Positions 44,674 through 59,569 of a stretch of 64,000 nt of DNA are shown piece after piece (position 1 is the stretch's first letter; the number at the start of each line of letters is the position of its first letter). The notes beneath the pieces are model-generated. The model saw only the letters and a list, made by a program, of their open reading frames with translations. It was not told the DNA's origin and searched no databases. This DNA comes from Rhodospirillaceae bacterium (lineage in GTDB: Bacteria; Pseudomonadota; Alphaproteobacteria; Rhodospirillales; Rhodospirillaceae): positions 124,001 through 188,000 of the forward strand of contig JAQWQC010000034.1 in the NCBI GenBank assembly GCA_029245025.1, read 5' to 3'. The position numbers were made by a program, and so were the translations under genes.

Positions 44674-46356
44674 ATGTCTGAAGACGCCCAAAGCCCAAAT
44701 TCCGAGCCATCTGCTCCGCCCGCCGTGGGTAACCCCGTGCCCGGCTATGCCGTCGAATCGGTGCCCCCAGGGGAAACCAAGCCCGGCGTCGATCTCGCCG
44801 GTCATAAGGGATTACTCGACCAGCTGACCCAGATTTTGGGTGCAGAGAATGTCAAATCCGACGATGAGTCCCGTGCTTTTTTTGCCGAGGACACGTTCCG
44901 CAGTTTTGAGACTCCTCTCGCTGCAATATCACCAACCTCAACAGAAGACCTTTCTCTCGCGGCTGCTGCCTGTCACGACGCTCGAATTGCGCTAGTCCCC
45001 CGCGGCGGCGGCATGTCCTATACTGATGGGTACCTTCATACCAAGCCTGACTCGATCACTGTCGACACCCAGAAAATCAATCGAATCCTTGAAATCAACG
45101 AGGATGATATGTACGTCACCGTCGAATGTGGATGCACATGGACGGACTTAAACGACGCCCTGAAAGAGAAAGGTTTGCGCACCCCCTATTGGGGACCACT
45201 TTCCGGATTTCAAAGCCGTGTAGGTGGCGCGTTGTCACAAAACTCAGTGTTTTTTGGTTCAGGCTTTTACGGTTCTGCCGTAGAGCAGGTTCTCGGGTTG
45301 GATGTCATTTTGGCAGATGGCACAGTGCTTCCCGTCGGGTCTCATGCAGTCGCAGGCGGTCTTCCGTTCATGAAACACTACGGCCCAGATCTTATGGGAC
45401 CGTTCCTTGCTGATGCCGGTGCGCTGGGTGTAAAAGCGACCGCGACCTTGCGCCTAATCCGTCGGCCGGAACACCGGCGCCATTTGGCTTACGCGTTCGA
45501 TACCTATGCGGATATGGCTAACGCCCTATCCAGCCTCAGCCGTGAAGGCTTAGCCACTGAGGCCATGGGCTTTGATAAAAACCAGCAATCGGCAAGGGTT
45601 ACTGAAGGAGAGAGCAATTTTCTGAAAGACGTTCGCACCTTGTTCAAGGTCATTAAAGAATCTGGCATTTTAGATGGATTACAGATTGCTTTCGCTGGTC
45701 GCCGCTATTTGAAAGACGTGTTCTACGGTTTGCACCTTTCGGTCGAAGATCACACCAAGGGCGGTGTCGAGGAGAAGGTCAAGCAAGCGAAACGTCTTGC
45801 AAGGGCGCTTGGCGGTCGACCGCTACCAGCTTCCGTAACAAAAATTTGCCACGCTGAACCATTCCTGCCACCGGACTCCATTGTCGGCCCAAGTGGCGAG
45901 CGATGGGTACCGCTGCATTGTATTGTGCCGCACTCCAAAGCGGTCGAAGCATTGGATGCTGTGACCGCTGTTTATAAAAAGTATGCAGCCGTAGCAGAGA
46001 AGCACGGCATTCGTAACGGCTTCTTGCTGGTCACTGTCGGCAACTACGGGTTCCTTATTGAACCGGTTTGGTTTTGGCCTGACGCGCAACTCAAAATGTA
46101 TGAGACGGCAATCCGGCCTGAGCACCTCGAGAAATTACAAACCTATGATGCCGACGAAGAAGGCCGCACAATCGTCAAAAATATGCGAGATGAGTTGGCG
46201 GCAATGTTCGCGGATATGGGTGCCGTGTCCATGCAGTTGGGCAAAATGTATCGCTACGACAAGAGCCGCAAGCCCGAGGCGTGGGAAATGCTGAAAAAGA
46301 TCAAAGGTGTTGTTGATCCGAACGGTCTGATGAACCCGGGTGCGCTGAAGCTTTAG
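44674..46356 (+). CDS. FAD-binding oxidase, VAO/PCMH (GlcD-like) family
   Basis: A 560-aa flavoprotein. The FAD-binding PCMH domain is seen in LVPRGGGMSYTDGY, VDTQKINRILEIN, the TVECGCTWTDLNDAL strand, GPLSGFQSRVGGALSQN and GVKATATLRLI. The C-terminal FAD-linked oxidase domain ends GVVDPNGLMNPGALKL, the usual VAO-family ending. There is no signal peptide; a proline-rich N-terminal tail of about 45 residues precedes the domain. Relatives include vanillyl-alcohol oxidase, 4-cresol dehydrogenase, alkyl-DHAP synthase and glycolate/D-lactate dehydrogenases. The substrate cannot be assigned. It is first in a run of plus-strand genes reaching to 48613. Confidence 0.87.
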   Translation: MSEDAQSPNSEPSAPPAVGNPVPGYAVESVPPGETKPGVDLAGHKGLLDQLTQILGAENVKSDDESRAFFAEDTFRSFETPLAAISPTSTEDLSLAAAACHDARIALVPRGGGMSYTDGYLHTKPDSITVDTQKINRILEINEDDMYVTVECGCTWTDLNDALKEKGLRTPYWGPLSGFQSRVGGALSQNSVFFGSGFYGSAVEQVLGLDVILADGTVLPVGSHAVAGGLPFMKHYGPDLMGPFLADAGALGVKATATLRLIRRPEHRRHLAYAFDTYADMANALSSLSREGLATEAMGFDKNQQSARVTEGESNFLKDVRTLFKVIKESGILDGLQIAFAGRRYLKDVFYGLHLSVEDHTKGGVEEKVKQAKRLARALGGRPLPASVTKICHAEPFLPPDSIVGPSGERWVPLHCIVPHSKAVEALDAVTAVYKKYAAVAEKHGIRNGFLLVTVGNYGFLIEPVWFWPDAQLKMYETAIRPEHLEKLQTYDADEEGRTIVKNMRDELAAMFADMGAVSMQLGKMYRYDKSRKPEAWEMLKKIKGVVDPNGLMNPGALKL

Positions 46357-47189: not shown

Positions 47190-47822
47190 ATGACCAAGCA
47201 ACCGCGCAATCTTTATGAAGCCCCCGATTCAGCTAAAGGTGGCCCGCCACCCGCTGTCAAAGCTGAGTCTGGCTCAGGTCGTCCCAACCCAACTCTCGCG
47301 ATGATATCTCCCATTCAGGGGCGCGAGGAAGAGTTCGGTCAAGCCGTCAATGTCGCGCTGAAGACAATGACCGACACGATGCCCTATCAACACTATTTCA
47401 ACGATGCGTTGGTCAAGTCGCACCTGTCTCATATTCAGTTCGCTAAGAATCATGGCTTGCTAGATGAAATGATCTCCGAAGATCAGAAATCGATGTCGCC
47501 GATGCTCGGCCGTATTCGCGGCAAGGTCGAGGAGACTGGAAACACCGAACTCGGCATGATCGCGATGTTCGATCGTACTTCTTGTTTTTATCAAATGCTG
47601 TCGGAGTGGGACTCAGAGCCTGGTATGCGAAGGTATAAAGAACCGTTTGGTTATGTCTTGGAGATGGGCAAGCGGATCGGCCAGTTTGATCTAACAGTTG
47701 AAGAAATTCACCAGATTTATACCAAGCCCCGCTATTACGGGTATGCGGGACAACTTGGCCTTAAACTCGACGTAACCGACATCGACACCGACGGCTATAT
47801 CACCGTCACTCTGGTCGAATAA
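47190..47822 (+). CDS. Unknown protein, paralogue A of a tandem pair (no signal peptide)
   Basis: A 210-aa protein from ATG 47190, preceded by GGGAGAG; the track start overlaps the previous gene. A low-complexity N-terminal tail (residues 1-40) leads into a largely helical domain. That domain shares with the next gene the segments NDALVK, HIQFAK, LL-EM, SPM, a cysteine followed by aromatic residues (SCFYQ), MRRYKEPFGYVLE, RIGQFDLT and PRYYGY. I cannot assign a family. With no signal peptide it should be cytoplasmic, while its neighbour is exported. Confidence 0.75.
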   Translation: MTKQPRNLYEAPDSAKGGPPPAVKAESGSGRPNPTLAMISPIQGREEEFGQAVNVALKTMTDTMPYQHYFNDALVKSHLSHIQFAKNHGLLDEMISEDQKSMSPMLGRIRGKVEETGNTELGMIAMFDRTSCFYQMLSEWDSEPGMRRYKEPFGYVLEMGKRIGQFDLTVEEIHQIYTKPRYYGYAGQLGLKLDVTDIDTDGYITVTLVE

Positions 47823-47974
47823 GAAAAACATAGAGATTACATGAGATTTGAGACCTGTTCTCTAGTTGGACAATCGCCCGAGGGCAGTTAAACCGGCCTA
47901 TGTGGTCAAGCCGGGTTCAGGTATGCTGCCTTCAATCTTTTGCAGTCGGATTAATCCAAACCGGGAGCTCGTCC

Positions 47975-48613
47975 ATGACCATACGTTTGCTTGAAGTCGC
48001 TACGGCTGGCGTGATTGCCGTCGCGATTTCCACTTCCGCCTTTGCCGCAGGACGTCAAGTCGGCCAGTACTCACCTTTCCCTGAAAAAACAGATGAGTTG
48101 GGTCAGGCGATGCAGATGGTCATCAAGACCTTGAATCATTCCAGCCGTGCCTATGAACACCAAGTAAATGACGCGCTAGTAAAAATGACTCTCGGTCATA
48201 TCCAGTTCGCTAAAGACAATGACCTTTTGGAAGAAATGGTTGATGACGAAATCAGAGTACAAAGCCCGATGCTGATACGCGTTGCTAAGATGATTGAAGA
48301 GTCTGGTGACAAAGAGCTCGCCCTTAAGGCTGTCTTCGAGCAAACAACCTGTCACTTCCAATTGGTTATGCAAACTGAAATGCAACCTGGTGTGCGCCGG
48401 TACCTGTTTCCCTATAGCCATGTTCTGGAGGAAACCCGTCGTATGGGTCAACACGACCTTACTAACGAAGAAATCTATAACGTTTGGCTGAAGCCACGTT
48501 ATGAGCGCTATGGTGAAGTGCTCGGCGTTCCTCTAAAAGTTGATCCTTGGGATCCCGAAACCCAAATCATCACAGTGCGTATTAAGGGTTTCGATCAAGT
48601 CTCAATGCGCTAA
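47975..48613 (+). CDS. Unknown exported protein, paralogue B of the tandem pair
   Basis: A 212-aa protein from ATG 47975 (GGGAGC ahead) with a signal peptide, MTIRLLEVATAG, cleaved after AFA. The mature part aligns with paralogue A across nearly its full length: YSPFPEKTDELGQAMQMVIKT, NDALVKMTLGHIQFAKDN, SPMLIRVAKMIEESGD, TTCHFQL, VRRYLFPYSHVLEE and RRMGQHDLTNEEI. It is followed by a strong terminator at 48635. The pair probably arose by duplication, then one copy gained or lost export. Function unknown. Confidence 0.75.
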   Translation: MTIRLLEVATAGVIAVAISTSAFAAGRQVGQYSPFPEKTDELGQAMQMVIKTLNHSSRAYEHQVNDALVKMTLGHIQFAKDNDLLEEMVDDEIRVQSPMLIRVAKMIEESGDKELALKAVFEQTTCHFQLVMQTEMQPGVRRYLFPYSHVLEETRRMGQHDLTNEEIYNVWLKPRYERYGEVLGVPLKVDPWDPETQIITVRIKGFDQVSMR

Positions 48614-48754: not shown

Positions 48755-50875
48755 CTAGAATCTCCCACTGATTGTTAGACGAGCGTTAACGGGCGCACCG
48801 ACAGTGACTTGATGTGTGCTATGCGAGTTTGGGAAGTACAGCGTGTCAGTCAGGTTTTCTATATTAAGTTGCAGGCGGAGCTGATCAGATAGGTCTAAGT
48901 ATGCTGCAGCATCAATACGCGTATAGCTCGGCAGGACAGCAGTGTTACCGTTGTTAACGAAGCTCTCGTCTTGATAAGTCATTCCCAGGCCGATGCCGAG
49001 CTTATCTGTGACCTGAAAGTTATTCCAGAGCGATGCCATGTTTTTAGGTAATTCACGTGGTCGCAGCCCTGCAGGGCCAGATCGCTTGACTTGCTCGCCG
49101 TCAAGATAGCTGTAACCAGCTGAAACAAACCATCTGTCTGTCACTTGACCCTGAAGCTGCGCCTCGAATCCCTCTATCTTTGACTCGATGATATCCAAGG
49201 TTGAGGGGTCATTATCAGCCACCTGAGGTGAACTCTGCTGTACTTCAAAAATGGCCGCTGTAAGGCTTAGGCCTTGATTAAAGTCCCATTTCACACCTGC
49301 TTCTAGGTTGGAGAATGTGTTCGGGTCTAGTTGATCATTGTTGCCATTGATATTTGCGAACTGTTCTCCGCTGCGAGGCAAAAAAGACTCGCTATAACTT
49401 CCGTATAAAGAAATATTTTCCTGAGGTTTGATTACTAGGCCGATGCGCGGCGATATTTCTTCATCCTTTCGCGTCCTTGTTTCGTTTGCGAGAACATTAA
49501 AAACTTCAATATCAAAGCTATCGAACCGAGCTCCAACAATAACGTCCAGTTTCTCAGAAATTTCGATCTCGTCTTGTATGTAAGCAGAAAACACATCAAT
49601 GCCCACGCGTGTATCGTCATTAAGGTCTGTAGAGAAGCTGTTTGTTGCTGTTAGGCCGGACGAGTTCACGCCGATGCCACGCCTTAAATTGAGCGGCCGA
49701 GCAATTGGAAACACCTCTTTGTCATCTGCTGTAGTATCCCAGAACGAGTTAAAGCGGTCTTGATTTGAGGACGTGTCTATATATTCGAAGCCAGCAACAA
49801 CCGTGTGAAGGAGGCCGCTAGTTCCAAATTCTCCAATTAAATTTCCGGATAAGATCAGGTTTTTACGATCGGTTGTGTCAACATAACCATCAAGCGTCAC
49901 GATGTTTGGTGTGGTCGCCTGACTGTAACCTGACGCATAAAAGTTCTGATATAGCTTTGCATAGTCGCCATAAGACGCGACGAAATTACCTTTCAGATTT
50001 TCGGAAAAGGTGTGCTGCAACGTCGCGCGCAGTAAATGGGCTTTGAGCTGTGTGGTATTGAGTTCGGGGTCAGCGAAAACAATATCTTTGAGTGCTTCAA
50101 CAGGACGACCATCTGATCCTGTTGGTATTCCGCGATCAATGAAGCGCTCATGATCGTTGTATTCATAAGACACATGTAGCGCCGTATTTTGTGCCAGTTC
50201 GAATTTGACTGTCGGATTTACGCCAAATCTATCACCGCTATAAAAATCACGATGATTATTTAAGCGCTCGTAAAACGCGTTGACTCGGAACGCGGATTCC
50301 TCACCTGTAGTAAAATTGCTGTCAATCTGAACGTCAAAAGCACCAAATGCGTCAACACTGGCCGCGTAACCAGAGAAGGTTTCTCCGGTCACAGCTCTCT
50401 TTGTGACGCGGTTTAAGATGCCGCCCGTACCACCACGCCCAAACAATAGCGCATTTGGGCCGCGTAAGATCTCGATCTGCTCTAAATTATAAACAGGGCG
50501 ATAATACTGAACGTCATCACGGACACCATCGATGAAGAAGTCGGCCGTTGAACGCACGCCACGAAATACAACAGAGTCGCGGTGCCCTTCACCCTGTGAT
50601 GTGTTCACCCCTGGCGTATAATTTACGATGTCGCCGATACTCTTAAAGCCCCGCTCTGTGATCTGCTCAGCGGTGACGATGGAGAGGCTTTGCGGAACAT
50701 CAATGATCGGAGTCGGTGTTTTGAGAGCGTTAATTTGATCGGTGTAGAGATATTTCCCTGTGACTACAATTTCATCAGGCGAAGTCTCTTCTGGTGACTG
50801 AGCTCCAGCTGAAGTAGCCGAGAATGCAAGGTAAAGGGCTGTTGCGCTAGAAAATTGGACAAAACATGATCTCAC
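48755..50875 (-). CDS. TonB-dependent siderophore receptor
   Basis: Outer-membrane receptor of about 706 aa for a ferric siderophore. GTG 50875 is chosen over the TTG at 50890 because GGAGCG lies about 9 nt ahead. A signal peptide ends near AGAQ. The TonB-box-like DEIVVTG and the plug domain (TPIIDVPQSLSIVTAEQITERG, FRGVRSTADFFIDGVRDD, IEILRGPNALLFGRGGTGGILNRVTKR) are clear. The barrel follows and ends in the terminal phenylalanine (TISGRF) needed for insertion. Fur-like boxes upstream indicate iron repression. No siderophore synthesis or ABC uptake genes are adjacent, so it probably takes up a foreign siderophore. Confidence 0.95.
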   Translation of the reverse strand: MRSCFVQFSSATALYLAFSATSAGAQSPEETSPDEIVVTGKYLYTDQINALKTPTPIIDVPQSLSIVTAEQITERGFKSIGDIVNYTPGVNTSQGEGHRDSVVFRGVRSTADFFIDGVRDDVQYYRPVYNLEQIEILRGPNALLFGRGGTGGILNRVTKRAVTGETFSGYAASVDAFGAFDVQIDSNFTTGEESAFRVNAFYERLNNHRDFYSGDRFGVNPTVKFELAQNTALHVSYEYNDHERFIDRGIPTGSDGRPVEALKDIVFADPELNTTQLKAHLLRATLQHTFSENLKGNFVASYGDYAKLYQNFYASGYSQATTPNIVTLDGYVDTTDRKNLILSGNLIGEFGTSGLLHTVVAGFEYIDTSSNQDRFNSFWDTTADDKEVFPIARPLNLRRGIGVNSSGLTATNSFSTDLNDDTRVGIDVFSAYIQDEIEISEKLDVIVGARFDSFDIEVFNVLANETRTRKDEEISPRIGLVIKPQENISLYGSYSESFLPRSGEQFANINGNNDQLDPNTFSNLEAGVKWDFNQGLSLTAAIFEVQQSSPQVADNDPSTLDIIESKIEGFEAQLQGQVTDRWFVSAGYSYLDGEQVKRSGPAGLRPRELPKNMASLWNNFQVTDKLGIGLGMTYQDESFVNNGNTAVLPSYTRIDAAAYLDLSDQLRLQLNIENLTDTLYFPNSHSTHQVTVGAPVNARLTISGRF

Positions 50876-50928
50876 GGTGGGGCGCTCCAAAGCTTATGAT
50901 AATTTACGTGATGTAAACTATGTTAATG

Positions 50929-50970
50929 TGATAATGATTATTAATAACAATGATAATGATTATTAATAGC
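50929..50970. promoter_or_regulatory. Two Fur-box-like sites upstream of the siderophore receptor
   Basis: The sequence TGATAATGATTATTAATA occurs twice with a 22-bp period (starting 50929 and 50951). Each copy matches the GATAATGAT half of the Fur consensus with a partial inverted half. A third, weaker GATAATCA lies at 50980. They are 50-100 bp from the receptor start, where Fur would block transcription when iron is plentiful. Confidence 0.75.
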
Positions 50971-51338
50971 ACTGCGAATGATAATCAATACAAAATCGAA
51001 TTAACGCTATCTGTGGCACCTCAGTCGGCGAAAACCTCTCCGAAGAAGATGTCTCTACCGTTGCCTCGAGCACTTCGACAGTGGGATCAAGTTCAAGAAT
51101 TAGTTTCGTGAATTTATCAATGAGTAACGGAATTGGTGCTAGATTTGCGACGCTCCCAGACGGTTTGATGCGTATTCGAGTTCCCAATTAAAAAATTAAA
51201 TTTGGCTTCGGAGAAAAAGTGGCTCCACCTTCTCAATTGGGGTCGGAATTCTTCCATTCATCTATGATTTGATTTTAAAACTTGGCGAAATCTTGGTTCT
51301 TTGCCGAAACGGCATAGGCACTTAATGACCGCTTATTA

Positions 51339-51355
51339 ATTAGAATGATTCTAAT
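51339..51355. promoter_or_regulatory. Perfect 17-bp palindrome upstream of katG, Irr/ICE- or PerR-like operator
   Basis: ATTAGAATGATTCTAAT is a perfect inverted repeat around a central G, about 98 bp before the katG start. It fits the alphaproteobacterial Irr box (TTAGAA-N3-TTCTAA) and also the 7-1-7 layout of Fur-family PerR boxes. Both regulators are known to control peroxide defence. The rest of 50891-51452 has no gene I can support. Confidence 0.7.
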
Positions 51356-51389
51356 AAGTTGACAGCTTCAAGCGCCCGAATATATTTGA

Positions 51390-53738
<2,349 letters not shown>

Positions 53739-53789: not shown

Positions 53790-53820
53790 AAAGACCCTCG
53801 CTTCGGCGGGGGTCTTTTTT
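53790..53820 (+). terminator. Rho-independent terminator of katG
   Basis: AAGACCCTCGC and GCGGGGGTCTT pair around TTCG, a stable tetraloop, followed by a run of T. It isolates katG from the envelope-protein cluster that starts at 53922. Confidence 0.92.
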
Positions 53821-53921
53821 ATTAGCTGGACCGCCATAACGTGGTCGTGACGCACAAACCTCATTTCGCTGATTGATCAACCCTGCGTAGGGTGTCTCCC
53901 TAATAAATGGGGGTCGCAATC

Positions 53922-54422
53922 ATGAAACCGTCTAAGCAGTTGGCCTCTATAGGATTGGCTTTGGCATGCGGTATGGGAATAGGCGCGCTCAGCGTCGGCA
54001 GTTTTGCGCAAGGCAATGCGCTCCGTTGGGTCAACGGCACCTACCCAGAAGCCTATGAAGCAAGTATGGATGCCTCATCCGCGGCCTTCGAGCGTAAGGA
54101 CATGGAAGCGACCCGGTCTCATATGGCTGAAGACTTCGCCACCTACGAATTACACGGCCCGGAATCACCGAAGCTGTTGGTCAAGGGTCGGGACAAAACC
54201 ATTGAGGTGATGAACAATTTCTTTGCCGGTGATTTTGGCTCAAGCTGGGATGGTGCTGAGGTCGAGAAGCTCGGCTCCATCGGCAACACCATGGTTCAGA
54301 TTGAGTACGATCGCTATAACATGGAGGGTGGTCAGATCACCATCCCGACTTTTGTCATCATCCAATATCAAGACGGCAAGCGCTGGCGCGAGTGGCGGCT
54401 TCGTCCCGATCCCGCCACATAA
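53922..54422 (+). CDS. Exported SnoaL/NTF2-like protein
   Basis: A 166-aa protein from ATG 53922 (GGGGGTCG ahead); an ATG 15 nt upstream is also possible. The signal peptide (MKPSKQLASIGLALACGMGIG) is cleaved near SFAQ. The mature part has the helix EASMDASSAAFERKDMEAT, HMAEDFATYEL and strands ending VIIQYQDGKRWREWRL, consistent with the cone-shaped NTF2/SnoaL-like fold used as an enzyme or ligand-binding pocket. It heads a four-gene run with gaps of 27, 35 and 27 nt in which every product is exported or membrane-anchored. Ligand unknown. Confidence 0.75.
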   Translation: MKPSKQLASIGLALACGMGIGALSVGSFAQGNALRWVNGTYPEAYEASMDASSAAFERKDMEATRSHMAEDFATYELHGPESPKLLVKGRDKTIEVMNNFFAGDFGSSWDGAEVEKLGSIGNTMVQIEYDRYNMEGGQITIPTFVIIQYQDGKRWREWRLRPDPAT

Positions 54423-54449
54423 ACAGTCTGGTATCGAGAGAGAATCGCC

Positions 54450-56312
54450 ATGCGTCTAACACATGTCTTGTCCGGTTTAACGGCCGCGGCATTTTTGCTT
54501 GGGGCGACGGATGCTGTGCTCGCAAAGGGCAACCCAGAGCGTGGCAAAGTGCTCGCACGGGATTGCTTCGCGTGTCACGGCCCCGACGGGAACAGTCCAT
54601 CGCCGGTAAACCCAAAGATTGGCGGTCAGCACGAGCGGTATATTTTTCTGGCGCTGATGCAATATTTGGAGGGGGAGCGGAAACGCTCTTTGATGACGGG
54701 TTCTGTGCTGGGCAAGACAGAGCAAGAACTCGAAGACATCGCTGCCTATTACGCGGCACAGCCGGGATATCTCTCACGCCGGGAAATTCGTCAGCGTAAA
54801 CGGGAGGGCGTTTCCGCAGAACAGCAGGGTAGCCCCCAAGGCGGCGGCCCACCTCAAGGTGGCGGTGCGCAGCAACCCAAGTTTGATCACAGTGATCAGA
54901 TCGCCAAGTACAACAGCATGCTGGCCCAGGCGGTGTACGACGCTAGCCAAGTGACCGAGCAGGTAGACGAAGCGGTTTGTGCGGCCATCACCGGTGATGC
55001 TGGATCCGATTCCGATAACGACGGTCTGGCTGATGCCTACGATGCGGCTCCCAATGATGCGGGCGAATTTGTCACCGATGTTAGTGGTGATGGCTACTTT
55101 GAGATTTGCAATATCCAACAGTTCGAAGCCATTGGCGCGCTGGGATCAGGCGACGGCACAAGCACGACGCTTGATCGCACTGTCCGTATGACCCGCAAGT
55201 ATCAAGTGGTGCGCGATCTTGATGCTTCGGTGATAGAGAACTTTGAGCCGATTGGGGATTGCGGCCCCGAAGGCAACTGTATGATCACGTTTGATCGCTT
55301 TGGCTTTCAAGGAATCGTCGACGGGCAGGGGCATGTAATCCGTGGTCTGCGCATCTCGAAGCCTGGAGGTGGCGGTGTTGGTTTGTTCGGTGTGCTCGGT
55401 CAAGCGGGTACCGTGCGCAACATTGTGCTTGAAGATGCCGCCGTGGTTGGTCGCGGCGGTGTCGGCATGTTGGTCGGCAGTAATTTCGGCATCGTTTATC
55501 AAAATCGCGCGCAAGGCGAGGCGGCCGGTGAGTTGGCCGTCGGTGGATTGGTCGGCGGAAGTGCAGGATTTGTTGCCTACAGTGAATCGACAGGCAAGGT
55601 TTCCGGTAGTCAGGCGGCGGGCGGTCTCGTCGGCGATATGCGCGGTGCGGTCTACTTTAGTCACGCCAATATGGAAGTGGCGGCTATTCGCGGTATGGGC
55701 GGCTTGGTCGGTCTCAACACCTTTGGTTTTATTCTTAGCAGTTATGCAGAAGGCACGATCATCGGAAGCAATGACGTTGGTGGTCTGGTCGGTATGAACA
55801 CGGACGGTAAGGTGCGCAACAGCTATGCAACGAATACCGTTGAAGGCGACGGGAATAATGTTGGCGGTTTGATTGGTTTTCATTCCCTTGGTGATGTGCG
55901 CAACAGCTATGCAACGGGCTCTGTCTCGGGTGCCGATACGGTCGGCGGATTGGTCGGGCGCAATAATGGTATCGTCAAGCGTAGCTTTGCGGCCGGGCAG
56001 GTGACAAGCACTGGCGCTACCGGAGGAATCTCCGGTGCCGTTGTCGAAGGAGAAGTTGTCGCGAGCTATTGGTCTGCTGCTGCGCAGGCTAAAGACGCAG
56101 CTGATCTAGCCCGGTTGTCGGGCAATCAAACGGGTTGGTCTCCGGCACAGCCGCCTGTAGCTGACCTGATCGACTATTTCTGTGATGCAAACACCAATGG
56201 GTTTATCGACCCGCAAGAACGTTCACCGGACAACTATGTGTGGGAATTTGGCTCGTCCTCAGAGCCACCATCCATACGCTGTGCCTTACGCGCTGGGGCG
56301 CAAAACGGATAA
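54450..56312 (+). CDS. Cytochrome c fused to a calcium-loop and GLUG-repeat domain
   Basis: A 620-aa exported fusion. The signal peptide ends near VLAK. Residues about 28-105 are a class I cytochrome c: heme motif CFACH (C39, C42, H43), a candidate axial methionine in SLMTGSVLG, and the closing helix LEDIAAYYAAQ. A Gly/Gln/Pro linker (about 124-142) follows. Then comes a DSDNDGLADAYD calcium-type loop, as in thrombospondin type 3 and dockerin-like loops. From about residue 280 to 540 there are GLUG-like repeats of the form VGGLVG...SYATG, each a turn of a predicted right-handed beta-solenoid. GLUG repeats are mostly known from surface adhesins, so a heme domain in front is unusual. Second gene of the exported cluster. 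Confidence 0.85.
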   Translation: MRLTHVLSGLTAAAFLLGATDAVLAKGNPERGKVLARDCFACHGPDGNSPSPVNPKIGGQHERYIFLALMQYLEGERKRSLMTGSVLGKTEQELEDIAAYYAAQPGYLSRREIRQRKREGVSAEQQGSPQGGGPPQGGGAQQPKFDHSDQIAKYNSMLAQAVYDASQVTEQVDEAVCAAITGDAGSDSDNDGLADAYDAAPNDAGEFVTDVSGDGYFEICNIQQFEAIGALGSGDGTSTTLDRTVRMTRKYQVVRDLDASVIENFEPIGDCGPEGNCMITFDRFGFQGIVDGQGHVIRGLRISKPGGGGVGLFGVLGQAGTVRNIVLEDAAVVGRGGVGMLVGSNFGIVYQNRAQGEAAGELAVGGLVGGSAGFVAYSESTGKVSGSQAAGGLVGDMRGAVYFSHANMEVAAIRGMGGLVGLNTFGFILSSYAEGTIIGSNDVGGLVGMNTDGKVRNSYATNTVEGDGNNVGGLIGFHSLGDVRNSYATGSVSGADTVGGLVGRNNGIVKRSFAAGQVTSTGATGGISGAVVEGEVVASYWSAAAQAKDAADLARLSGNQTGWSPAQPPVADLIDYFCDANTNGFIDPQERSPDNYVWEFGSSSEPPSIRCALRAGAQNG

Positions 56313-56347
56313 AGCGCTTTAGGCGCTCATATAGAAAGAAGACGATC

Positions 56348-57346
56348 ATGATCAATCGCCGCACTCTTTTGGCCGCTGCAGCAGTTATGGCGGTGGCTTC
56401 GCCGGTCACGGCCCAAGAGCGGATATCAAATTTCAAGCCGTTTGCAGATGGGGACATCTTTGTCGCTGCGACGATCATGGATCACCCCACGGATGATCAC
56501 ATGGGGACGGGGCGAATTTTCCAATATGACGAGGATCTCCAACTCAAAGGCACGCTCTACACCAAAGGCACCACACACAAAGTAGGCGGGCTCGCTTTCG
56601 CACCCGATGGAACTCTTTGGGCCTTCGCGCAGGGCACACCTGCTGTTGTCGAGATTGGTGATGATGGTGTTCAAAAGCCGGTGCGTAAGTTTTCGGATCG
56701 CACCCTCAGCAGTGTGACGTTTGGCGATGACGGCAGCTTGTTTTTTGGCGAACATTTGATCGGCAAGAAGCTCAGCGTTCCACCGCTCACAACACGGTTT
56801 AATCTGTTGCCTGGGCGTGACGTGATCGGCGACGGCTACGTCTTCAAGTTTAATTCTGATGCGGAGTTGCTCGAAGAATTCCCGACCGATACCCATGGCG
56901 GTGTTGCCGGCATTCACGGTGCCACGTCGACCGTGCTAGCCGATAACGGCACTCGCATGATTTACATTTCTGAAACTGGCAACCGGGTGATGCAGTACGA
57001 CTTGGCTAACCGTAAGCAATTGCCAGATCTCAAAGTGTTTGACGAGCACGAAGAAATTTTCATGGTGTTGACCATGATGCCGATGGTTGATGGATCTTTA
57101 TTGCTCAGCACGGGTAACGGCATGGTCACGCTGGACCAGCACACCGGTGAAATTATCAAGTACTACGATATGGACAGCAGCGGATGGGCCGCTTGCGCCC
57201 CTACGGCAGACGGCAAAAATATTATTGTCGGTAACTTCTTCAGCGGACAGGTTGTTCTGGTCAGCGTAGAAACCGGCGAGGTTGTCCAAAGCGCTTACAT
57301 TGGCCAGAACAATTCATTATCTGGTGTGGCGCAATACCCCGGATAA
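56348..57346 (+). CDS. Exported beta-propeller protein (SMP-30/NHL-like)
   Basis: A 332-aa protein from ATG 56348; the track start lies in the previous gene. The N-terminus MINRRTLLAAAAVMAVA ending VTAQ looks like a Tat signal. The mature part is a series of repeats typical of six-bladed propellers: VGGLAFAPDGTLWAFAQG, SVTFGDDGSLFFGEH, GIHGATSTVLADNG, MMPMVDGSLLLST and AACAPTADGKNIIVGNFFSGQ. Such folds include lactonases, strictosidine-synthase-like proteins and NHL sensors. The metal-binding residues of SMP-30 lactonases cannot be matched with confidence. Third gene of the exported cluster, 35 nt after the cytochrome-GLUG gene. Confidence 0.75.
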   Translation: MINRRTLLAAAAVMAVASPVTAQERISNFKPFADGDIFVAATIMDHPTDDHMGTGRIFQYDEDLQLKGTLYTKGTTHKVGGLAFAPDGTLWAFAQGTPAVVEIGDDGVQKPVRKFSDRTLSSVTFGDDGSLFFGEHLIGKKLSVPPLTTRFNLLPGRDVIGDGYVFKFNSDAELLEEFPTDTHGGVAGIHGATSTVLADNGTRMIYISETGNRVMQYDLANRKQLPDLKVFDEHEEIFMVLTMMPMVDGSLLLSTGNGMVTLDQHTGEIIKYYDMDSSGWAACAPTADGKNIIVGNFFSGQVVLVSVETGEVVQSAYIGQNNSLSGVAQYPG

Positions 57347-57373
57347 GCCAGTCCTAAGATAAGGAAAATAGAT

Positions 57374-58141
57374 ATGACGAAGAAACGCATCGGACTCGCA
57401 GTGCTTGCGGCGCTCGGCGCTCTTATAATCTGGTCGTTCATTCCTAACCAATTCCCCGTTTATGAAACGCAAGCCAGTGCGGCCCCTGAAGGGGGGCACC
57501 ATGTTCTGATTTTCGGTGCCACGCGGAATTCGGGATTGGAAACCGCCAAGATTCTTATTGGTCGCGGTGACCGGGTGACGGCATTCGTTCGTGAGTCGTC
57601 AAATACGGCCGAGCTTGAGTCGCTGGGAGTTAATCTTGTTGTTGGTGACGCGCTCGATATGCCTTCGGTGGAAGCGGCGTTTGTCGATAAGGATTATACG
57701 TCAGTGGTTACAACCATCGCCTGTTTCAGTTGTGACCCCAAGCCCGATTATCTTGGCAACCGCAACGTTTTCGACGCGGCGGAAGCTGCTGGTGTAAGAC
57801 GTGTGATTCTCATGACGACGGTTGGTGCAGGCGATAGCTACGAAGCGGCACCGTTGCCAGCGCGCAATTTTCTTAAAGATATTATTCCACTCAAGACACA
57901 GGCCGAAGATCATCTGATGGCCAGCAGCCTGGACTACACCATCATCCGTCCAGGTGGACTTAAATCAGGTCCTGCGACCGGGCGCGCCTACTTAAGTGCA
58001 AGCCGCGAAGCGTTTGGCATCATCAATCGAGCTGATCTCGCCGGGCTGGTGGTCAATATAATTGATGACGACAACACCATCGGGGAGGTTTTGGCAGCCA
58101 TGGACGCGGACATGGTTTTCCCCTGGGACATGTTGTTTTAG
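57374..58141 (+). CDS. Membrane-anchored NAD(P)-binding protein, NmrA/SDR-atypical family
   Basis: A 255-aa protein. An N-terminal hydrophobic helix (IGLAVLAALGALIIWSFI) without a clear cleavage site is followed by a short linker and then the Rossmann loop FGATRNSGLETA. The fold continues with TAFVRESSN, VVGDALD, VILMTTVGAGD and DYTIIRPGGL, all typical of NmrA-like atypical SDRs. If the helix is a signal anchor, the NAD(P) domain faces the periplasm; an inward topology is also possible. It is the last gene of the exported cluster and resembles the exported protein at 25625. Confidence 0.8.
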   Translation: MTKKRIGLAVLAALGALIIWSFIPNQFPVYETQASAAPEGGHHVLIFGATRNSGLETAKILIGRGDRVTAFVRESSNTAELESLGVNLVVGDALDMPSVEAAFVDKDYTSVVTTIACFSCDPKPDYLGNRNVFDAAEAAGVRRVILMTTVGAGDSYEAAPLPARNFLKDIIPLKTQAEDHLMASSLDYTIIRPGGLKSGPATGRAYLSASREAFGIINRADLAGLVVNIIDDDNTIGEVLAAMDADMVFPWDMLF

Positions 58142-58182
58142 CAAAAGCCTTAATCACCACTCTGGATTTTGTATCGTTTCAT

Positions 58183-58208
58183 CCCCTAGTATGCGTCTCC
58201 ACTAGGGG
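58183..58208 (+). promoter_or_regulatory. Inverted repeat overlapping the ribosome binding site of the MFS gene
   Basis: CCCCTAGT at 58183-58190 pairs with ACTAGGGG at 58201-58208 around a 10-nt loop. The second arm contains the GGGG of the likely Shine-Dalgarno for ATG 58217. As RNA it would hide the ribosome binding site; as DNA it could be an operator for a dimeric repressor. No T tract follows, so it is not a standard terminator. Confidence 0.5.
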
Positions 58209-58216
58209 GTGATGGT

Positions 58217-59569
58217 ATGAGTGATCAAGTTCAAGGACAGGTGACCGACGACGAGCACCCAGACGAAAAGTACGCGTGGTACGTGATGGTGGTCTTGGTG
58301 ATCGCCTATGCCTTTTCTTATATCGACCGGACTATTCTGACCCTCTTGGTAGAACCCATTCGCGCATCGCTCGACATCTCGGATACCGAGATCAGTCTTT
58401 TGCATGGGATTGCGTTTGCGTTGTTCTACACAATCCTCGGCATGCCTATCGGTTGGTTGGCGGATCGAGGCAACCGCATCAAGATTATTTCTATCGGCGT
58501 TTATTTGTGGAGTTTCGCGACCGCCGCCTGTGGTCTTGCCAACTCTTTCATTCAGATGTTTATCGCTCGTGTTGGTGTTGGGGTTGGTGAAGCTGCACTG
58601 TCACCATCGGTGTACTCGCTGGTGCCTGACTATTTCCGGCCTGAGAAGTTGTCCCGAGCTTTTAGCTTTTACAACGCAGGTCTTTTCATCGGGTCTGGTT
58701 TGGCGCTTGTTATCGGCGGCGCGGTCATTGAAATCACGCCTGCGCTTGACCTTCCTATTGTTGGTCATCTTGAGCCGTGGCAGGTCACCTTCATGTATGT
58801 CGGCTTGCCCGGCATCCTCGTTGGTTTGTGGGTCATGACCCTGCGGGAGCCGAAGCGTCTCGGCAAAACCGCCGACGAAAGCGGTCAGGTGAGTCTCAGG
58901 AGCCATATCAGGAGAGCGTTTAAGTACATAACCACCCGCCCGCGTGTGTATTTTTATCACTTCTTCGGATTTTCATTGTACGCCTTTATCTGGACGGGCA
59001 CCGCCGCGTGGACCCCGACATTCTTTATGCGCGAATTCGGTATGTCACCTGGTGAGGTTGGCGGTGCGTATGGCTTAATTGTCGTCGTCTTTGGGCTCCT
59101 CGGGGTAACGTCTGGCGGCATGCTGGCGGCGTATTGGCGCAAAAACGGCAAAGTTGATGCAGAAATACGGACCGGCATCACCGGTGTACTGTTGACGCTT
59201 CCTTTCGGTATATTGGCACCGCTGTCACCAAACCCAACCATTGCCTTCGTTGGTTTTGCAGGTCTGACGTTCTTTGCCAGTTTCCCCTGGGGTGCGGCAA
59301 CTGCTGCTCTTCAGTTGATCACCCCCAACCGGTTGCGCGCCATGGTCTCTGCCATGTTCCTGTTTCTGGTGAATTTGGCGGGTATCGGCTTGGCACCGAC
59401 GGTCATAGCCCTAATCACAGATGTTGGATTCGGTTATGACGCTGCTGTGAAGTATTCGATTGCGATTGCGGTTGGTGTGGCTGCACCGATTTCTGCGTTT
59501 CTGTTGTACCGTTGTCTGGCTCCTTACCGGGCGGAATACAACGATATGCATCAGGTGTCAGGGTCGTAG
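58217..59569 (+). CDS. MFS transporter, spinster/glycerol-phosphate-like branch
   Basis: A 450-aa major facilitator with twelve hydrophobic segments. The first helix carries YAFSYIDRTILTLLVEPI, motif A between helices 2 and 3 is GWLADRGNR, and GVGVGEAALSPSVYSLVPDYF forms the helix 4-5 region seen in the spinster-like and glucarate/hexuronate-type groups. The substrate is not clear. It starts 75 nt after the exported cluster with its own inverted repeat at the ribosome binding site, so it may be a separate unit. Its stop is 1 nt from the convergent HAD gene. Confidence 0.87.
   Translation: MSDQVQGQVTDDEHPDEKYAWYVMVVLVIAYAFSYIDRTILTLLVEPIRASLDISDTEISLLHGIAFALFYTILGMPIGWLADRGNRIKIISIGVYLWSFATAACGLANSFIQMFIARVGVGVGEAALSPSVYSLVPDYFRPEKLSRAFSFYNAGLFIGSGLALVIGGAVIEITPALDLPIVGHLEPWQVTFMYVGLPGILVGLWVMTLREPKRLGKTADESGQVSLRSHIRRAFKYITTRPRVYFYHFFGFSLYAFIWTGTAAWTPTFFMREFGMSPGEVGGAYGLIVVVFGLLGVTSGGMLAAYWRKNGKVDAEIRTGITGVLLTLPFGILAPLSPNPTIAFVGFAGLTFFASFPWGAATAALQLITPNRLRAMVSAMFLFLVNLAGIGLAPTVIALITDVGFGYDAAVKYSIAIAVGVAAPISAFLLYRCLAPYRAEYNDMHQVSGS

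Follow-up and report, generated by a model that had tools for sequence, protein, structure and literature searches.

An accessory module of exported cytochrome c-GLUG, beta-propeller and NAD(P)-fold proteins in Alpha- and Gammaproteobacteria, and its possible role in extracytoplasmic redox chemistry

Do four adjacent genes whose products all appear to be exported or membrane-anchored form a single functional unit, and what could such a unit do outside the cytoplasm? The question is raised by a locus in the 64,000-nt stretch of Rhodospirillaceae DNA analysed here (the window), where positions 53922-58141 hold four co-directional genes on the plus strand: a SnoaL-like exported protein (53922..54422, 166 aa), a cytochrome c-GLUG protein (Cyt-GLUG; 54450..56312, 620 aa), an exported beta-propeller (56348..57346, 332 aa), and a membrane-anchored NmrA-like protein (57374..58141, 255 aa). 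Inspection of the open reading frames gives gaps of 27, 35, and 27 nt, and an intrinsic terminator on the same strand (53790..53817), graded strong and consisting of a 12-bp stem with a T-run, marks the upstream boundary. Both features had been described in the first-pass annotation, and its proposal of one operon is supported, at the level of sequence, by the spacing, the terminator, and a joint loss of the genes in a relative.

Relatives have equivalent terminators 5′ of the SnoaL gene, even though a different gene comes before them (p212, as against KatG in the window). Genes for a TonB receptor and KatG, the latter with a twin-arginine-like N-terminus, occupy 48755-53738 between p212 and the SnoaL gene; they were rejected as members of the unit because their presence there is confined to the window species and a 99% twin of it (L009). 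Further upstream (47193-48613), p209 without signal and the exported p212 adjoin the unit conservedly in genera g1/g4; their mutual identity, measured in a relative, is about 42%, and neither matches a family above cut-off. No match to the sigma-70 consensus was found upstream of the SnoaL gene, and the leader between terminator and gene (53822-53921) contains a block, ACCCTGCGTAG, that is kept in L010 and L046 and may serve the unit as promoter or operator. At the other end, the regulatory hairpin announced after the last gene does exist (58180-58211; also in L010 and L011, partly in L046), but it is not a terminator, since it is without a T-run and its 3′ arm carries the Shine-Dalgarno sequence (GGGGGTGATGG) of the MFS transporter whose start codon follows directly; it possibly acts as a translational switch or an operator. 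The MFS gene (58217..59569, plus strand) is next in 7/7 g1/g4 loci with the unit and does not adjoin it in g6 or the gammas, and is possibly accessory to it. Rfam gave no RNA family at the four-gene locus.

That each product has its own export signal, two Sec-like, one Tat-like, and one anchor, is borne out by the N-termini, whose types were read from the letters without a predictor: Sec-type in the SnoaL-like protein, a Sec signal in Cyt-GLUG, a Tat-like and apparently cleavable 'MINRRTLLAAAA' in the propeller, and one transmembrane anchor in the NmrA-like protein. The charge is +4 before this anchor and −2 after it, with the same sense in 15/15 homologues checked, so that an N-in/C-out topology and a periplasmic domain are predicted. 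An extracytoplasmic location of the whole set, as was first suggested, is further supported in that every part bears a putative export signal, as do the NAD(P)-fold partners of all three families.

Cyt-GLUG consists of a class I cytochrome c domain (Cytochrom_C PF00034, 27.1 bits against a Pfam cut-off of 21.3), a Q/P linker, a TSP3-like calcium motif, and a GLUG beta-solenoid (Glug PF07581, 42.1 bits against 20.5), and it thus belongs to both the class I cytochromes c and the GLUG repeat proteins. Its heme site, C39-F-A-C42-H43 (CFACH) with axial M82, is conserved in all aligned members having the cytochrome domain, and six extra cysteines are conserved as well. In the AlphaFold model the predicted solenoid matches the helix of IgA1 protease (3n6z/7jgj); the cytochrome part is of low confidence, and its sequence match to c4/c552 is clear (1.4e-25). 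Identity with cytochrome c4 was rejected, because one CXXCH occurs in 620 aa where two heme sites are required. The protein is alike to monoheme class I c552/c553 and to half of a diheme c4 in its CXXCH and axial Met, with 36–45% domain identity to the best structural matches, but its single heme is fused to a calcium-binding stretch and a solenoid; with the M26 IgA1 proteases it has GLUG repeats and solenoid fold in common, but it carries a cytochrome in place of the protease domain.

The propeller, with its P-x-D-D-H-x-G-x-G-R signature, is modelled confidently by AlphaFold (pLDDT 91.8, 23 strands), and fold search returned only generic, non-diagnostic propeller matches. It scores 20.6 bits for PQQ_2, below the curated Pfam cut-off of 27.6, and SGL is matched by only 6/31 members of its family (best E 2.4e-5), so neither SMP-30/gluconolactonase nor PQQ propeller membership could be assigned. 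A PQQ-dependent alcohol or PVA dehydrogenase was likewise rejected, these having an eight-bladed PQQ propeller at least some 500 aa long, against 332 aa and 23 strands. In size, export, and fold it is similar to SMP-30/gluconolactonase, Vgb-like propellers, and periplasmic PpgL, yet it falls below the curated cut-offs and has another conserved signature (D-D-H-x-G-x-G-R); by its sequence it is a new subfamily with paralogues elsewhere. D49, D50, H51, and H77 are invariant and E135 nearly so, and these residues possibly form a metal site. Paralogues carrying the DDHxGxGR motif (L020:7853-9799; L021:7426-8442; L074:6015-7127) occur in tandem, or adjoin genes for a Rieske-type ferredoxin and an acyl-CoA synthetase-like protein, and belong to a wider unnamed propeller family; a plasmid search with the propeller found none. 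The SnoaL-like protein of the window reaches 24.5 bits for SnoaL_2 against a curated cut-off of 27, and its homologue in L101 exceeds it with 35.7 bits (PF12680 and its relatives representing the SnoaL-like fold).

Membership of the NmrA-like protein in its Rossmann family is clear (NAD_binding_10 126.2 against 27.2 bits, NmrA 38.9 against 27), and its coenzyme site, with the motif GxTRNxG, has invariant G48, G54, R73, and S76. The nearest solved relatives of this type, NmrA-A, are ChuY/ShuY (ChuY E 8.6e-33, a full-length domain match), with which it has in common the coenzyme motif region and the 'GDS..KT.AE..LDYTIIRPG' signature, as also with biliverdin IXb/flavin reductase. It differs from ChuY in a 5-residue insertion bearing a CxxC (the CFSCDP stretch, with CFSC at residues 117-120), and in location: ChuY is soluble, cytoplasmic, and encoded in a heme-utilisation operon, whereas the window protein has an N-terminal anchor and is predicted to be exported. 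The CxxC is present in 14/14 high-scoring clade members and in 0/16 weaker paralogues tested. The NAD(P)-fold slot of the module is filled by three alternative families: NmrA-A, with anchor and CxxC; NmrA-B, with a signal peptide or lipobox and without CxxC, whose closest solved relative is biliverdin IXb/flavin reductase (6.2e-16); and Tat-type SDRs. L047 has both NmrA-A and NmrA-B. One 3.1 Mb genome (G000; L002-L008, L022, L023) contains 24 NmrA-type matches, several with signal peptides, and exported NAD(P)-fold proteins seem to have multiplied there; the same genome encodes a membrane-anchored protein in which a CpeT/CpcT bilin-lyase-like domain is fused to an NmrA/NAD_binding_10 domain (L023:4876-6267).

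The four genes are found together well outside the window. When one genome per species was scanned, seven related loci turned up, three in Alpha- and four in Gammaproteobacteria, with the order Cyt-GLUG, propeller, NmrA in 7/7; the gamma loci (L012-L015) hold these three genes only, between flanks unrelated to those of the window. Anatomy was then counted over 32 Cyt-GLUG genomes (12 Alpha- and 20 Gammaproteobacteria, 40–99% identity, two G849 contigs being taken as one genome). Cyt-GLUG is followed directly by the propeller on the same strand in 30, often between unrelated flanks, an association far beyond chance; the exceptions are G038, with NmrA and a GLUG protein but neither cytochrome domain nor propeller, and G911, without propeller or NmrA nearby. 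An export-type NAD(P)-fold protein stands at 26/32 loci. SnoaL-like proteins, of two families, are at the locus in 18/32 and absent near the core in 14/32, and their position varies: before the cytochrome gene in g1/g4, at the end after NmrA in genus g6 (Cyt-propeller-NmrA-SnoaL) and in G393, divergent or convergent in some gammas. The four-gene unit of the first-pass annotation therefore stands as a constant core of Cyt-GLUG and propeller, with SnoaL and NmrA as frequent partners and not fixed members; that the four might never occur together elsewhere is answered by an order and orientation recurring in two classes with unrelated flanks, and by joint loss. Among the relatives searched, a single genome of the window's genus lacks Cyt-GLUG; the protein also occurs in three further genera of the family (among them that of G038), in a distant alphaproteobacterial family (G393, GLUG-propeller-NmrA type B-SnoaL, the GLUG gene truncated by the contig end), in 8/9 genomes of the gamma family of G100, and in 20/147 sampled genomes of that gamma order. 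Elsewhere the module is rare (1/384 other sampled alphaproteobacteria), and the phylum sample held no true relative, its sole extra match (G556) being rejected as a 1,400-aa GLUG protein of another kind. The hosts are scattered, mostly uncultured proteobacteria, and the open-access literature, without subscription journals or preprints, yielded nothing relevant on the gene combination or on cytochrome-GLUG proteins.

The exceptional genome of the window's genus (G005) retains a flavin oxidase gene (FADox), p209, p212, and MFS, while SnoaL, Cyt-GLUG, and propeller are gone, and between p212 and MFS lies a frameshifted NmrA relic (residues about 180-235); the four genes were therefore lost as one block, a natural deletion that makes the module an accessory trait. 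In the propeller and Cyt-GLUG trees the gamma family groups with g1/g4 with strong support and g6, of the same family as the window, branches outside; since the flanks in the gammas are unrelated too, the pattern is best read as movement of the block between the two classes, in either direction. FADox itself (44674..46356, plus strand, FAD_binding_4) has no export signal. In two streamlined genomes (G041, G028) that lack Cyt-GLUG, propeller, and SnoaL, the stop codon of its orthologue overlaps the CxxC-type NmrA gene by 4 nt, which suggests that flavin oxidase and anchored Rossmann protein are translationally coupled and makes them possible functional partners; because the overlapping pair is present without the rest, it may be an older pair. 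The same 4-nt overlap is seen at L153:6524-8955 of a streamlined genome. As a partner in the gammas FADox is a weak candidate, the family having many paralogues (11 in the window's genome).

Taking together the co-inheritance of Cyt-GLUG and propeller, the apparent export signals, the conserved heme and coenzyme sites, and the block loss, we favour, with moderate confidence, the view that the cluster forms an accessory module, open to horizontal transfer, whose products make up a redox unit outside the cytoplasm with a small molecule as its substrate. The solenoid would serve as a scaffold on which the single-heme cytochrome is held, either periplasmically or at the cell surface. The compound handled by the ChuY/BVR-B-like Rossmann protein (equipped with CxxC in the clade of the window) and by the SnoaL-like pocket protein would be small and either hydrophobic or cyclic; the propeller might bind or hydrolyse an intermediate, or dock partners; and the cytochrome would pass electrons to or from the respiratory chain. 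The most likely use is catabolism or detoxification of an environmental compound, because the module is patchy and dispensable. An exported oxidoreductase adjoining a c-type cytochrome recalls the flavocytochrome and PQQ-dehydrogenase systems, in which a flavin or PQQ enzyme is paired with such a cytochrome, but here there is no flavoprotein or PQQ dehydrogenase and the oxidoreductase has a Rossmann NAD(P)-fold. The redox pathway originally envisaged is hence plausible in view of the conserved CXXCH, axial Met, and CxxC, and loses some ground where the cytochrome domain is missing (G038) and in that SnoaL is not universal. Also counting against it are G911 and the two streamlined genomes that have the CxxC NmrA with FADox but not the core; moreover, a Sec-type or anchored Rossmann protein would be without NADP unless the cofactor binds outside. 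Zymomonas GFOR, as cited in PMC7317946, offers a precedent for a periplasmic NADP-containing enzyme, but it is of an unrelated family and is Tat-exported with its cofactor bound. That the exported Rossmann proteins work with NADP(H) or through a CxxC relay beyond the cytoplasm and trade electrons with the solenoid-mounted cytochrome, in a new pathway that recruited three NAD(P)-fold families to one and the same locus, is a bolder version which we regard as possible, though on balance unlikely.

Other readings fit parts of the same evidence. The module could have as its extracytoplasmic substrate a tetrapyrrole- or flavin-like pigment (a bilin, a product of heme breakdown, or a flavin or quinone cofactor), the Rossmann protein being the reductase and the propeller and cytochrome a carrier or sink. 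Both NmrA types are nearest to linear-tetrapyrrole or flavin reductases among solved structures, ChuY reduces anaerobilin with NADPH (PMC10404700), and a paralogue in the same genome is the CpeT-like fusion above; yet the ChuY match is a family feature, because a non-cassette paralogue has it too, the nearest solved structure mirrors what happens to be solved, and neither heme-uptake nor bilin genes are conserved at the module neighbourhoods examined, so that we consider this improbable. Hardly more persuasive is a surface or periplasmic scaffold for sensing or adhesion, in which solenoid and propeller bind a ligand, the heme senses redox state or gas, and the Rossmann protein is a non-catalytic sensor of the NmrA type. 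The founder protein of the NmrA family is a sensor, the solenoid resembles the IgA-protease beta-helix, the propeller matches are generic, and the cytochrome domain is sometimes missing; set against these are the invariant coenzyme-site residues and loci in which signalling genes are not conserved. We equally doubt that Cyt-GLUG and propeller are one functional pair for which NmrA and SnoaL are only neighbours from a common catabolic locus, FADox-NmrA being a separate pathway. The core does stand alone in G917 and G861, and the overlapping FADox/NmrA pair exists without it; but NmrA-A has accompanied the core into the gammas, where the flanks are new, SnoaL shifts position yet stays linked, and all four genes were deleted jointly.

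With the redox unit as the favoured reading, the parts of the module are known folds, and what appears to be new is their combination, which is conserved and mobile. A Cyt-GLUG gene adjoining a DDHxGxGR propeller and a CxxC-bearing ChuY-like protein provides a module signature common to two proteobacterial classes, and it raises the question of whether NAD(P)-fold proteins can act outside the cytoplasm, where their cofactor is not supplied.
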